The notes below the pieces were generated by a model. It had not been told where the DNA came from, made no database searches, and was given only the letters and a program-made list of their open reading frames with translations. Of a stretch of DNA of 22,477 bases, positions 14,598-22,300 are shown one piece after another (within the stretch, counting starts at the first letter, position 1; each line of letters begins with the position of its first letter). A program made the translations under genes and the position numbers. The DNA is from a virus. Location: positions 1 to 22,477 of the IMG/VR virus record IMGVR_UViG_3300043466_001136. One strand, 5' to 3'.

Positions 14598-14921
14598 TTA
14601 ATTGTTATTAATTGAAGAAATGCCTAGATCTCCAAGTTGTGCACCTGAAGCTGCTTCTACAATTTTATATACTGTTGGAAGATCAAGAATATCTTCCAGC
14701 ACTGCCTTATCTGTTGATAGCTCTGGAGCATACTGCTTCATAGCAATCTGAACACACTTAATTAAAACATCAATAGACTTTGAATTATCTTCTGACACTG
14801 CGTCAATCTTTTCAAATTCCTTCATGAAGTCACGAAGAAGTGATATTTTTAATGGACGAATCTTTATCTCTTGATCATTAAGTAATGTAATAGACTTTGA
14901 TTCATATACTGTTGTCGTCAT
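14598..14921 (-). CDS. Tail assembly chaperone, short form (G-like)
   Basis: A 107-residue protein directly before the tape measure. ATG 14921 has an excellent GGAGG five bases upstream, and an extended -10 box lies 26-34 bases before it. It matches the N-terminal part of the preceding 231-residue protein: EIKIRPLKISLLRDFMKEF against EIEVSPLKIKYMREFMECF, and KCVQIAMKQYAPELS against KCVQISMRQFCPELS. Both are mostly helical. In lambda-type siphoviruses a short G protein and a long GT protein, made by frameshifting, coat the tape measure while the tube grows. This one ends in SSINNN with no T-like extension, so it looks like the G-only partner encoded as its own gene. No slippery site or overlapping extension was found at its end, which lies 14 bases before the tape measure GTG. 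Confidence 0.85.
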   Translation of the reverse strand: MTTTVYESKSITLLNDQEIKIRPLKISLLRDFMKEFEKIDAVSEDNSKSIDVLIKCVQIAMKQYAPELSTDKAVLEDILDLPTVYKIVEAASGAQLGDLGISSINNN

Positions 14922-14966: not shown

Positions 14967-15662
14967 TTAAATTTTTTCATATTCTATACCCATCCCAATT
15001 CCAAACCCTGCTTTTTTAGCTGCTGGGCCTTGTAAAGACAAAATATCATTAGAGTCTGAAGTTTGACCCCTGCTGAACACTCTTGCCTTCATGTCTTCCC
15101 ACTCTTTTTGTCCACGATCTTTATTCGTTTCTGCATCAAGGTCAACACCTTGCATTGCAGCTAAAAACTTTTTTTCTTCATAATCTAACTCACGAATTGA
15201 CGATACTATTGCTACTAGCTCAGCTATAGATATGGATCTTTCTAGCTCATCAAAATTTTTCCATATACCCAGCAAAAATGCTTCTGTTTCTAACTTTACT
15301 AGGTCAAAGTCTTCCCAGGCTGAGGTGTCCTTAGCTTTTTGTGGATCATTAGATTCTTCTTTGTCATCTTTTTTATTAAACTTAATACCGCCAGCATGTT
15401 CTAATATGTCATATAAGGTTTGTAAGTCAAAGCTATCTTCAATGTCTTGTAAGCTCTTAGAGAGTTCTGGGCAAAACTGCCTCATAGATATTTGTACACA
15501 TTTGGCAATAATCTCAATGGCTTGCTCTTTTGTCTGAGTATTATGAATACCCGTAAAACACTCCATAAATTCACGCATATATTTTATTTTTAAAGGTGAT
15601 ACCTCTATCTCTTTATCATAAACTGTATATACATAAAATGTATTATATATTGCTTTATCCAT
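14967..15662 (-). CDS. Tail assembly chaperone, long form (GT-like, no frameshift)
   Basis: A 231-residue protein in one continuous frame. Residues 1-95 are paralogous to the short chaperone downstream. A charged linker (NKKDDKEESNDPQKAKD, 96-112) leads to a second domain at about 115-180: WEDFDLVKLETEAFLLGIW, NFDELERSISIAELVAIV, YEEKKFLAAMQGVDLD. That second domain has the pattern seen in the T-part of tail chaperones of many actinobacterial siphoviruses, where it is normally reached by programmed frameshifting. The C-terminus is Gly/Met-rich (KKAGFGIGMGIEYEKI). There is no Shine-Dalgarno before ATG 15662; instead a -10 box lies seven bases upstream, so the mRNA is probably leaderless. It is insulated from the major tail protein by a terminator. 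It is expected to bind the tape measure C-terminal part and the tube subunits during tail assembly. Confidence 0.85.
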   Translation of the reverse strand: MDKAIYNTFYVYTVYDKEIEVSPLKIKYMREFMECFTGIHNTQTKEQAIEIIAKCVQISMRQFCPELSKSLQDIEDSFDLQTLYDILEHAGGIKFNKKDDKEESNDPQKAKDTSAWEDFDLVKLETEAFLLGIWKNFDELERSISIAELVAIVSSIRELDYEEKKFLAAMQGVDLDAETNKDRGQKEWEDMKARVFSRGQTSDSNDILSLQGPAAKKAGFGIGMGIEYEKI

Positions 15663-19125: not shown

Positions 19126-19473
19126 TTATTTACCGTAGTATGATGCTACTTCTTCAGGTGACGCTATGCGTACACACTTATGAGTAATCATCTTTTCCGA
19201 TGCCTCCTTTGAGACTATGTTGTATCCTACTGAAAGCGATCCTATCTCATTCCAGTGGATATTTCTTGTTGAGTATAAAGCAACCTTTTCTGTTTTATTT
19301 TCTTTTTTTTCTTTAGCTTCTTCTGCTTTAGGGTCATTTGGGTGAAAGCTTGCGATAACTTCTAATATTTCTAATTTGGTTGTTACTCCAAATAGATCAA
19401 TATTATTTTTTTTAGCGTATGACTTTAATTCCATTACTGTCTTTTTTGATAAATCTTCCATAGTTAATTTCAT
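19126..19473 (-). CDS. Small head protein with Rho-N/LEM-like motif
   Basis: A 115-residue protein starting at ATG 19473 behind AAGGAG. Residues 7-40 (LSKKTVMELKSYAKKNNIDLFGVTTKLEILEVI) fit the helix-extended-loop-helix pattern of Rho N-terminal, SAP or LEM-like domains, which often bind nucleic acid or act as adaptors. A Lys/Glu-rich linker follows (residues 48-63). Residues 64-115 hold a beta segment (ALYSTRNIHWNEIGSLSVGYNIVS) and a short terminal helix. Small genes in this place, just after the capsid gene, are common in actinobacterial and similar siphoviruses and are often annotated as head or connector proteins. Exact function is unknown. DNA binding at the portal vertex is one possibility. 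Confidence 0.75.
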   Translation of the reverse strand: MKLTMEDLSKKTVMELKSYAKKNNIDLFGVTTKLEILEVIASFHPNDPKAEEAKEKKENKTEKVALYSTRNIHWNEIGSLSVGYNIVSKEASEKMITHKCVRIASPEEVASYYGK

Positions 19474-19496: not shown

Positions 19497-19505
19497 ATTA
19501 TACCA
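19497..19505 (-). promoter_or_regulatory. Extended -10 promoter box overlapping end of MCP-arm paralogue
   Basis: Minus strand reads TGGTATAAT and spans the last codons and the stop of the 73-residue gene. It would start transcription with a leader of about 18 bases ending in AAGGAG before ATG 19473. Confidence 0.4.
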
Positions 19506-19719
19506 GAGATCTTCTTAAGCTTTGAGCCCTTCTAATTCCTGAAGGAGTTCCGTAAGTAATTATGTTTGTACCAAAGTTAGCGGTTGGAATACAGCCTAAA
19601 GCATTAGTTTCTGATATTATTCCATTAGGGCCAGATATAACTGTGCCAGTTGATCCAGATGCTATACATCCATTGGCATCATGATTATGCTCTTCTACTT
19701 CGCTTCCAGGATAAGACAC
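19498..19719 (-). CDS. Stand-alone copy of the major capsid protein N-terminal arm
   Basis: A 73-residue protein starting at GTG 19719 with AAGGAG five bases upstream. It aligns along its length with residues 12-84 of the MCP encoded just upstream. Shared features are YPGS; a His-x-His pair (H11/H13 against H20/H22); ASG; Asn-Gly; LG; an exact TANFGT; GTP; Gly-Ile; and a terminal Gln then Arg-Arg. There is no capsid core. It differs by two Cys (C18, C43), absent in the MCP region. I infer a partial duplication of the capsid gene. It could be a minor capsid or decoration protein that occupies an arm-binding site, or an assembly factor. It is a separate cistron with its own start and is not a frameshifted tail of the MCP. 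Function is not known from sequence. Confidence 0.85.
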   Translation of the reverse strand: MSYPGSEVEEHNHDANGCIASGSTGTVISGPNGIISETNALGCIPTANFGTNIITYGTPSGIRRAQSLRRSLV

Positions 19720-19739
19720 TTTATCTCCTTATACGACTA

Positions 19740-19767
19740 AGGAGGGCAGTTTTTACGCTGCCCCCCT
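19740..19767 (-). other. Stable hairpin after capsid gene (attenuator or mRNA stabiliser)
   Basis: On the minus strand AGGGGGGCAG pairs with CTGCCCTCCT over 10 bp (one G-U) with an 8-base loop, 21 bases after the MCP stop. There is no U-tract after it (TAGTCGTATAAGG follows), so it is not a classical terminator. It could attenuate read-through or protect the MCP mRNA. Confidence 0.6.
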
Positions 19768-19787
19768 CAATCATTGTTTGATATTAA

Positions 19788-20942
19788 TTAGGAATCTGTA
19801 GCGTCTGCATCTGCGTAAGCAACTGCATCCAACTCTTCCCACTGGATACCAAAACGAACGAATACTGTGTACTCGATGGTGTCCTTCTTTGGCTTGTATT
19901 CACGATTTACTGTGATATCTCGCTGGAAGCCCCATACACGGTTAGCTGGGAATGTCAAGTCGACATATCCTGCTGGGTAGTAAGGAACTTCTTGAACTGT
20001 GATTCCGAGAACACGAGTTGTACGTGCATCTCCGAATGTCTGTCCTGCACCATCAAGGTATGCCTGACGGTTTGACTGTGTGCTTCCTGGGATTTGACCC
20101 TGTACTGCTTCTGCAATTGCATCAGCAAGTGTACCGTTATTCTTTACGATACCCTGGAATGCGTCTGTACCTGCGTAGAACTTAAGGTTTGACTTAAGTG
20201 CACGATACTTACGTGGCATTGCCAAGATAATGTTCTGCATAACGTTTGGTGTCCACTCGTTGTTTGCAACAGTAACTGCTGCCTCGTGAGCTGCGTTACC
20301 CTGTACCTGGTTTACCTGCTTAACGAATCCTGGCATGATTGAAAGGAATGGGTCATTACCTGATCCCACACCGTTAATCGCAAGGTCTTCAATGTCGTTA
20401 GCAAAAGCATTGGTCATCAAGCGAACTAGATGATCCTCAAGTGCTCCGCCTTCAATATTGTCTTCGAGTGCTTCTGTTGATACTTCCCAATCGAGACGAA
20501 TCTTCTTTGTAGTAAGTTCAACCTTTGTAAATGTAGCACCTGCGTTTGTGAAATCTGGCTGAGCCTGAGCAGCAGCACGGATTACACGCTCACCAACGTT
20601 GACCTTCTCGATCTCCATTGTGTTAGCTCGCATTGTGATTTTGCGACCATCCTTGGCGAGAACTGTTGCATCCCACACATAGTCGATGAAGCGACGAGCT
20701 TGTTCTGGTGCGAGAATACCACCTGGTGTTCCAGTTGGGTTAACAGAGTTTGCACCGCTAGTACCGAAGTTTGCTGTGGCAATGTTACCAAGCGAAGCTG
20801 CGGGTGAAAGGTTACCGTTAGCATCTGTGACTGTTGCGCCACCGATTGCTCCAGACGCAAAAGAACCATCGCCGTTGTGGGCGTGTGACTCAGTTGGAGA
20901 TCCAGGGTAATTCTTTACGATATCTGTATTTTGTTCTGACAT
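19788..20942 (-). CDS. Major capsid protein (HK97 fold)
   Basis: A 384-residue protein. I place the start at ATG 20942 (MSEQNTDIVKNYPGS), with AGGAGGTGA spaced well upstream; the GTG at 20951 lies inside that ribosome site. Residues 1-90 form a Gly/Asn-rich arm with YPGS, a His-x-His pair and TANFGT, repeated in the neighbour gene. From about 85 the HK97-like body begins (RRFIDYVWDATVLAKDG, then TKKIRLDWEVSTEALED), and DIEDLAINGVGSG is typical of the helix of the fold. The C-terminus has RDITVNREYKPKKDTIEYTVFVRFGIQWEE, the usual last strands. No long N-terminal delta domain is evident; the scaffold function is probably supplied by the protease fusion. It lies directly after the protease gene and is the expected product to assemble the procapsid. 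Confidence 0.9.
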   Translation of the reverse strand: MSEQNTDIVKNYPGSPTESHAHNGDGSFASGAIGGATVTDANGNLSPAASLGNIATANFGTSGANSVNPTGTPGGILAPEQARRFIDYVWDATVLAKDGRKITMRANTMEIEKVNVGERVIRAAAQAQPDFTNAGATFTKVELTTKKIRLDWEVSTEALEDNIEGGALEDHLVRLMTNAFANDIEDLAINGVGSGNDPFLSIMPGFVKQVNQVQGNAAHEAAVTVANNEWTPNVMQNIILAMPRKYRALKSNLKFYAGTDAFQGIVKNNGTLADAIAEAVQGQIPGSTQSNRQAYLDGAGQTFGDARTTRVLGITVQEVPYYPAGYVDLTFPANRVWGFQRDITVNREYKPKKDTIEYTVFVRFGIQWEELDAVAYADADATDS

Positions 20943-20971
20943 ATTGTTCACCTCCTAGTGATTTATATATA

Positions 20972-21529
20972 TTAACTTAATAGGTCGGAATTTGTGAGGA
21001 AACGTCCGCCCCATAGGGATTTCTGAACCTTTTCAGGCTCAAACTGCACGATCTCGCCTAGATCGCCAGACTTGCGGAAAGCGGTGTCTGCAACTACGGC
21101 ATCAACTCGCTTGCCAAACTCATTAAAGTTACCCTTGATATTGTTAACCTCACCTGTTACGGTATCAACGGACTTTGTTACTGCTGCTATCTGCTCGTTA
21201 AGAGACTTGATAGTTGTAGCTAGATCGCCAAAGGCATTAGTAAGAGACTCTTTAATTTCAGAGACTGCTTTTGCAACCTCTTGGTTAAGTGCAATAGAAA
21301 CTTCATCAATATTATCTGATGCTTCTTTTGTAGTCTCTTCTTCTACTGCTGCTTCTGCAACAGAAGAATCTGCACTGCCATCAACTGACTTAGCAACATC
21401 TGTTTCTTCAACAGCTGCTACTTCCTCAACAACTGCGTCAGTTTTTTCAACTTCTGCTGGCTGTGCCTCTGGAGCAATCTCTATATCTTCAACTACTGCA
21501 TCTACTGATGCTTCTGATACTTCTGTCAT
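20972..21529 (-). CDS. Nested scaffolding protein (internal start in protease gene)
   Basis: ATG 21529 is in frame as codon 252 of the protease-scaffold gene and is preceded by AAGGAGGT with seven bases spacing. It would give a 185-residue protein containing only the acidic linker and the coiled-coil scaffold. This is the lambda C/Nu3 arrangement, in which scaffold is made in excess from an internal start. It is inferred from the ribosome site and domain boundary. Confidence 0.6.
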   Translation of the reverse strand: MTEVSEASVDAVVEDIEIAPEAQPAEVEKTDAVVEEVAAVEETDVAKSVDGSADSSVAEAAVEEETTKEASDNIDEVSIALNQEVAKAVSEIKESLTNAFGDLATTIKSLNEQIAAVTKSVDTVTGEVNNIKGNFNEFGKRVDAVVADTAFRKSGDLGEIVQFEPEKVQKSLWGGRFLTNSDLLS

Positions 21530-22282
21530 AGGATTTACCTCCTTGGTAATCTTAATTGTACTAATGCCTTTAGCACTATCAACTAAGAACTTTATCATAT
21601 CTGACTTTTCTCTATCTTCTTTTTCAACAAAACCAATGTTGGCCATTGCTTCGCCAGTTACTGGACTTACTTGTGTTTCTTCTTGTGAAGTAACAACAAT
21701 CCCAGACTCTTTATCATAAAAAACATTCTCTAAAACTGTCTCATCACCCTTAATCACATCTACCCCATCTACTTTTTGAACTGACATAATACTTGCAAAC
21801 TGATTAGCTGGGCTATCAACTAGTGAGAGCTCAATAAGATCGTATTCTTTAATAATTCTAATTTGCTTATCTGCTTTTTCATCATAAGCATCATCCCACT
21901 TATTCATTCTTCCACCAATAGAAAAACCAGTGTATGTTCCGTCTAGAACCTTTTCCCATGCATCTTGTGCACCCTTAGAAATATATGTTGAAACATATAC
22001 TCCCTTGTAGAATTTCTTTGATTCTGGATCAAAATATTTTTCTTCTTTAAATGAAACCATCTTGCCTACTGCTGATGGTTGGTGCATCTCTCTAATGTTC
22101 CCACGGAATTTAGCAAAAGCCTCCATAGATGCTTCTGTTGTAACAATATCATTCTGCTTGTCAAGGTTATCTAGTGACGCAAAACCAGAAACCATTCTAC
22201 GGCCTTCATCAATTTTTGTTAGAGGCATAGACAGACGAACGTTGTCGCCGTCAGTAACCCACGAAGCCTTATTTATTTTCAT
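20972..22282 (-). CDS. Prohead protease (S78-type) fused to C-terminal scaffold domain
   Basis: A 436-residue protein. Residues 1-170 are the HK97-type S78 protease: GFASLDNLDKQNDIV at 33-47, MHQP with His67, GTYTGFSIGGR with Ser121, and IELSLVDSPAN at 150-160. His67 and Ser121 fit the catalytic pair, and E151 or D156 the third residue. Residues 252-330 are acidic and Val/Glu/Ala-rich. Residues 330-400 form a coiled coil (VSIALNQEVAKAVSEI, then TVTGEVNNIKGNF) expected of a scaffold that guides capsid assembly before being cut. A second start with a strong ribosome site lies at 21529 and would make the scaffold alone. The gene begins at ATG 22282 with no Shine-Dalgarno but an extended -10 box nine bases before it. 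It matures the procapsid before packaging. Confidence 0.9.
   Translation of the reverse strand: MKINKASWVTDGDNVRLSMPLTKIDEGRRMVSGFASLDNLDKQNDIVTTEASMEAFAKFRGNIREMHQPSAVGKMVSFKEEKYFDPESKKFYKGVYVSTYISKGAQDAWEKVLDGTYTGFSIGGRMNKWDDAYDEKADKQIRIIKEYDLIELSLVDSPANQFASIMSVQKVDGVDVIKGDETVLENVFYDKESGIVVTSQEETQVSPVTGEAMANIGFVEKEDREKSDMIKFLVDSAKGISTIKITKEVNPMTEVSEASVDAVVEDIEIAPEAQPAEVEKTDAVVEEVAAVEETDVAKSVDGSADSSVAEAAVEEETTKEASDNIDEVSIALNQEVAKAVSEIKESLTNAFGDLATTIKSLNEQIAAVTKSVDTVTGEVNNIKGNFNEFGKRVDAVVADTAFRKSGDLGEIVQFEPEKVQKSLWGGRFLTNSDLLS
21537..21544 (-). promoter_or_regulatory. Internal ribosome binding site for nested scaffold
   Basis: Minus strand AAGGAGGT, an almost perfect anti-16S match, seven bases before the in-frame ATG at 21529. 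It is one of the strongest Shine-Dalgarno sites in the window and is out of place inside a coding region, which makes chance less likely. Confidence 0.65.
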
Positions 22283-22291
22283 ATCACATCT

Positions 22292-22300
22292 ATTATACCA
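22292..22300 (-). promoter_or_regulatory. Extended -10 promoter, apparent leaderless start of protease
   Basis: Minus strand reads TGGTATAAT; nine bases then separate the hexamer from ATG 22282, so the leader would be 0-3 bases. No ribosome site is present. A -35 is weak or absent. Confidence 0.5.

Follow-up and report, generated by a model that had tools for sequence, protein, structure and literature searches.

In bacteriophage T4 the vertex protein gp24 is a probable duplicate of the major capsid protein (MCP) gp23 that has been adapted for the vertices (PMC9958956). The small protein described here is likewise an MCP paralogue by duplication, however gp24 has the whole HK97-type fold and forms pentamers, whereas in the present case the N-terminal arm only has been copied and there is no core. 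Head expansion brings the N-arms of the T4 MCP to the outer surface (PMC9958956). Very small head proteins are also described in the phages Patience and Adjutor. In the passages of the source cited here, Patience gp4 is a random coil when alone and becomes ordered on the capsid beside the MCP N-arms, and the Adjutor gp4 accessory capsid protein has a chain length of 54 aa (PMC10635136). The likeness to the small protein is one of description, both being very small and gp4 being a head protein. The same passages describe gp4 as helical on the capsid and do not report it as derived from an MCP, whereas the small protein is MCP-derived. Decoration and cement proteins, e.g. gpD, Soc and the beta-tulip type (PMC7602432, PMC11821841), resemble it in that it is small, encoded next to the MCP and possibly located on the shell. 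It is unlike them in its origin from the MCP arm, in having no match in PHROGs, Pfam, NCBIfam or the PDB sequences and in its signs of low rather than stoichiometric expression. Searches of the open-access literature for partial MCP duplications gave nothing relevant, and no description of an arm-only MCP paralogue encoded as its own cistron was found there. Full-length MCP paralogues are thus known, e.g. T4 gp24, and the arm-only copy would represent a variant of the MCP-derived accessory head proteins, with a predicted location in the virion.

The window, i.e. the whole stretch of DNA analysed, is an IMG/VR record of 22,477 bases. The positions of the features discussed are given in Table 1. 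The MCP open reading frame displays PF05065 and TIGR01554 profile matches above the cut-off, and its translation probably starts at the ATG at position 20939 (MSEQ...). The MCPs of the Stanwilliamsviridae Streptomyces phages, e.g. Coruscant, belong to the same core family and are about 43–44% identical over the core, the match beginning only at residue 77. These phages differ in that neither the arm nor a stand-alone arm gene was found in the phage collection: among 50,697 catalogued phage records none matches the MCP arm, nor does any match a stand-alone copy taken from the other small-protein subgroup. The Coruscant MCP has a short lead followed by GGGGLLNPEQANRFIDYMWDATV and starts almost directly at the core. 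The absence of a match to the arm in the phage records, together with the start of the Coruscant MCP near the core, points to the arm of ~75 residues as an addition specific to the uncultured lineage. In a genome collection of 84,980 species the small protein has no relative. One contig in that collection carries a relative of the MCP and it is found in an Actinomycetota metagenome-assembled genome (MAG), thus the host probably belongs to the Actinomycetota, a binning error of the contig being possible. Going by this contig and by general knowledge of such phages, we take these phages to be probably from freshwater.

Table 1. Features of the capsid region of the window (positions in the window; all on the minus strand).
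Feature	Positions	Strand	Remarks
Head-tail connector candidate, 322 aa	18155–19123	-	phrog_442, weak match
115-aa gene, downstream edge of slot	19126–19473	-	
Extended -10 promoter element TGGTATAAT	19497–19505	-	overlaps stop codon of small gene
Small stand-alone capsid-arm gene	19498–19719	-	73 aa, GTG start
Ribosome-binding site AAGGAG of small gene	19725–19730	-	5 nt before GTG, direct reading
RNA hairpin between MCP stop and small gene	19733–19774	-	17-bp stem, 8-nt loop
Major capsid protein, HK97-type	19788–20951	-	PF05065, phrog_1623 (E = 1e-73), TIGR01554
Duplicated part of MCP gene (N-terminal arm)	20691–20912	-	BLASTP and whole-record search
Prohead protease with coiled-coil tail	20972–22282	-	phrog_9427 (E = 7e-113)

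BLASTP aligns amino acid positions 2–70 of the small protein with positions 14–87 of the MCP (31 of 74 identical, 42 of 74 positive, E-value = 3e-14), which confirms the match to the MCP arm claimed for the 73-residue chain in a preliminary description of the sequence. The alignment covers the arm alone. The HK97-type core is missing from the 73 aa chain, as that description also held, and a short basic tail is present in its place. When the record of the window is searched with the small protein there are two matches only, i.e. the protein itself and the MCP arm (E = 2e-12). The motifs YPGS, HxH, ASG, TANFGT, GTP and GI pointed out earlier as shared are all present, however a final RR match is probably not meaningful, since at that point the small protein has a basic tail of its own. 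Among 56 aligned small proteins the invariant residues are MSYPG, G17, G33, G50 and the G-P-G of the GTPxGI end; in a wider set MSY is kept and PG not always. The subgroup nearest to the MCP displays the sequence GPNAVNPSGTPNGIRLPxQNNF, which is very close to the MCP sequence GPNAVNPTGTPGGILLPEQARRF and is followed by a run of Arg residues. The two Cys residues of the small protein in the window (C18 and C43), stressed in the preliminary description, are not a family feature: 51 of the 84 unique small proteins lack Cys altogether, 14 carry a single one and 19 carry two. No Cys occurs in the MCPs of these same phages (84 unique pairs).

The small protein has no credible match, and no match to a capsid protein, in PHROGs, Pfam or NCBIfam, and no credible match to the PDB sequences; in these four collections no described decoration family is matched. 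Two mycobacterial prophages gave weak tblastn matches (E = 0.9 and 3 respectively) that are attributed to chance, and the one inspected is antisense to annotated genes.

A second partial copy is present in the window. The 107-aa open reading frame at positions 14598–14921 (minus strand) copies, as a stand-alone gene, the N-terminal part of the adjoining 231-aa open reading frame at 14967–15662 (minus strand). The two have 36 of 96 residues identical (E = 2e-22) and both are assigned to phrog_10504. The pair lies upstream of the tape-measure gene and resembles tail-assembly chaperones such as lambda G/GT, encoded by two genes instead of by a frameshift.

The IMG/VR viral contigs were scanned with the small protein, its profiles and three MCP queries. 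Before the last two scans there were 222 loci with the small gene, many of them one contig fetched again, and removal of duplicates and truncated loci left 192 MCP loci. The small gene is found directly downstream of the MCP in 96 of these 192 loci and is absent from the other 96, a split that depends on the queries used and is not a population frequency. Thus the same gene pair, which the preliminary description had proposed to look for in related phages, is present there. The start codon is 67–80 bases past the MCP stop with one outlier, and it is ATG in 134 loci and GTG in the window. In records of up to 112 kb neither the small gene nor the MCP arm occurs more than once, and there is no copy elsewhere. 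A chance likeness of low complexity, or membership in an unrelated family, is excluded by the family-wide similarity, the single copy per genome and the position beside the MCP only. Large records with the small gene (85–112 kb) are similar in size to those without it (80–114 kb), although the records may be fragments, and there is no sign of a tie to genome length.

In a joint tree built from 79 unique small proteins together with 118 MCP arms, one branch separates all of the small proteins from all of the arms (SH-aLRT 98); an earlier joint tree of 58 rows shows the same separating branch with a support of 88. The inner forks of the joint tree are unresolved due to the short alignment. The placement of the small proteins in one clade apart from all MCP arms indicates a single duplication, and by this sequence comparison the small gene is an arm-only paralogue of the MCP gene that was born once. 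On the MCP core tree, presence of the small gene changes 11 times with 104 rows and 14 times with 181 rows, at least eight of the latter on supported branches. A single origin together with many changes of presence points to loss and exchange within a fixed slot. The locus L101, where the small gene is absent, has a hairpin of the type found in L066, and this shared hairpin type suggests that the small gene was lost there through recombination with a phage like L066 that lacked it. Three other loci without the small gene (L112, L296 and L311) have retained the leader of carrier type just after the MCP, as after a deletion of the small gene of which this leader would be the scar.

The gene is missing from about half of the relatives examined, and absence from relatives accompanied by decay had been raised in the preliminary description as the outcome that would speak against its reading; yet the gene is not decaying. 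Over 26 separate pairs the small gene and the MCP arm have the same dN/dS ratio of 0.18, and the ratio of the core is 0.09. The gene might be taken for the non-functional remnant of a tandem duplication, given its absence from many close relatives, but this is most improbable, as it is contradicted by the dN/dS of 0.18, and the small gene has an intact frame and start in 135 loci, a ribosome-binding site that is kept across relatives and a single old origin. The partial gene duplication proposed at the outset is strongly supported by the similarity, the one origin, the pairing with the MCP and the purifying selection.

The small protein changes together with the MCP arm. Distances among small proteins correlate with those among MCP arms when the core is removed (partial r = 0.59, 0 of 2000 permutations), and the value is 0.44 when the core, the 115-aa protein, the connector and the protease are all removed. 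For the 115-aa gene the correlation with the small protein, given the core, is about 0.2 only. The connector correlates with the small protein at a partial r of 0.60 given the core and of 0.50 given the core and the arm. It is possible that the connector is a second partner of the small protein, or else that it is the best measure of general divergence; since it correlates about as strongly as the MCP arm, a part of the co-change signal may be overall genome divergence. In all 84 unique pairs the small protein has the HxH state of its MCP (HxH is in both partners of 71 pairs, in neither of 13 and mixed in 0), however this perfect agreement counts as one event because HxH changed once on the tree of the carrier phages. 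Several of the pairs without HxH share a matching LNGEG-like stretch.

The MCP arm displays HxH in 82 of the 96 loci with the small gene versus 14 of the 96 without it, a comparison for which tests on independent pairs lack power. Among similarly variable MCP columns those of the arm predict presence of the small gene better than those of the core (p = 4e-4, uncorrected for phylogeny), and the top columns are V9, L78, H22, H20 and Q25.

The percent identity of the small protein is 43% to its own MCP arm and 39% to foreign arms. For residues that are shared, the fraction of identical codons is 0.444 against the own MCP arm and 0.449 against foreign arms. This equality argues against recent gene conversion, which was rejected as the cause of the similarity between the arm and the small protein. 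The identity values also bear on the proposal that the small gene serves interference, i.e. that a fragment of the MCP poisons the capsid assembly of co-infecting competitor phages. The small protein is a fragment of a self-assembling protein and its presence is patchy and switching, as such a gene might show, however it should then differ from its own MCP arm; instead it matches it, being closer to its own arm than to foreign ones and sharing the HxH state, and this proposal is very unlikely.

The same co-change data would fit a regulator of assembly outside of the finished virion, where the free arm competes for the sites of MCP arms on capsomers or proheads and in this way adjusts the nucleation of the shell, the rate of its assembly or its fidelity. 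A bare arm without a core is the simplest possible competitor, and the low expression proposed below would also fit. However half of the relatives examined manage without the small gene, and the conserved basic tail suggests a role beyond competition, which makes an assembly regulator rather improbable. The earlier suggestion of a minor capsid or decoration protein in the groove of the MCP arm, or of a regulator of assembly, is compatible with the co-change with the MCP arm.

The slot that holds the small gene contains a hairpin and a promoter element. In the window an 83-nt stretch with the hairpin folds at -29.7 kcal/mol (z = -6.0). A strong hairpin of about -20 kcal/mol or lower is found past the MCP stop in 145 of 145 unique spacers, with or without the small gene, with means of -24 to -25 kcal/mol; the stem sequences differ and the pairing is kept. 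There is no U-rich tail after the hairpin, and a terminator scan shows no terminator there on the coding strand. Since the U-tract is absent the hairpin is perhaps not a classical terminator, and it may act in RNA stabilisation or attenuation.

The end of the small gene in the window is the promoter element itself, i.e. TCT CTG GTA TAA T, which reads S-L-V-stop. The element is a probable promoter of the downstream 115-aa gene. In the loci without the small gene TGnTATAAT is 57–81 bases past the MCP stop, after the hairpin (96 of 96), and in the loci with the small gene it is 285–359 bases past the MCP stop, right behind the small gene (96 of 96). It is not found between the MCP and the small gene in any of 60 loci checked. 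Thus the small gene resembles a moron, the kind of optional cargo gene that phages carry together with a promoter and a terminator for it, in its precise presence or absence between conserved flanks, but not in having a promoter of its own.

TGGTATAAT is also found at positions 22292–22300, before the protease gene. The pattern TGNTATAAT has five matches in the window (2803, 14947, 16447, 19497 and 22292, minus strand), all on the coding strand and just upstream of genes; 2.1 are expected by chance over both strands. These sites are a probable late-promoter family without a clear -35 element. Other features of the neighbouring genes may be mentioned here. The 115-aa protein has a SAP/HeH-like start and is similar to endonuclease VII-type PHROGs at their ends (E = 4e-6), and in some relatives (L073 and L091) its first part is missing. 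The C-terminal part of the prohead protease is long, acidic and coiled-coil-like and may double as the scaffold.

The lack of a U-tail, of a terminator call and of a promoter before the small gene places it as the last gene of the protease-MCP unit, behind the hairpin, and we infer that the protease is the first gene of this transcription unit. The small gene would then be expressed below the level of the MCP. Codon adaptation relative to the MCP core, as a multiple of the uniform expectation over 96 genomes, is 1.50 for the small gene, 1.99 for the MCP arm, 1.59 for the protease and 1.46 for the connector; the lower value of the small gene than of the MCP arm agrees with lower expression. In the window itself the small gene has a very low value (0.30, versus 0.71 for the MCP), which is atypical, as over the 96 genomes the small gene is at the level of the protease and the connector.

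The reading we favor, with a probability of roughly 55%, is that the small protein is a low-copy, dispensable minor head protein that uses the contacts of the MCP arm. It would be made from those protease-MCP transcripts that read through the hairpin, at a low level relative to the MCP. It would be largely unfolded when alone and would fold on joining the capsid, where it would take the contacts of an MCP arm, i.e. the arm-binding groove or an arm-arm cluster, the HxH site included. Its sites would be those where an extra or missing arm is tolerated, e.g. around the portal vertex, and the basic tail that replaces the core may contact DNA or acidic neighbors. AlphaFold, run on a shallow alignment, gives the small protein alone a pLDDT of 52 and no confident fold, an outcome to be expected if the arm acquires its fold on a partner and a weak indication of disorder. 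The MCP, also on a shallow alignment, has a pLDDT of 41; both models are poor and yield no binding site.

The arms may instead lie outside of the mature head, as the behavior of the T4 arms on expansion would allow, and the small protein may be an exchangeable second version of a surface ligand, e.g. one in which a metal-holding HxH cluster touches host or particle surfaces. An optional gene in an often-switching slot, and an arm that is more variable than the core, are in keeping with this. However an exposed ligand need not mirror the state of the MCP arm, and the low expression proposed above does not suit one, so that a surface ligand appears unlikely.

A more specific form of the minor head protein reading is that the small protein is a free arm subunit which plugs symmetry-mismatched arm sites, likeliest at the portal vertex, by MCP-like contacts and a shared HxH metal cluster. 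That the small protein correlates with the head-tail connector as well as with the MCP arm is compatible with such a plug, which is nonetheless a doubtful proposal. If it is true, the lattice and its plug both come from one gene family.

An arm-only copy that is under selection and changes with the MCP arm would represent a natural separation of the function of the arm from that of the shell. With the small gene present in some and absent in other close relatives, these phages may provide a natural knock-out series for the role of HK97-type N-arms.
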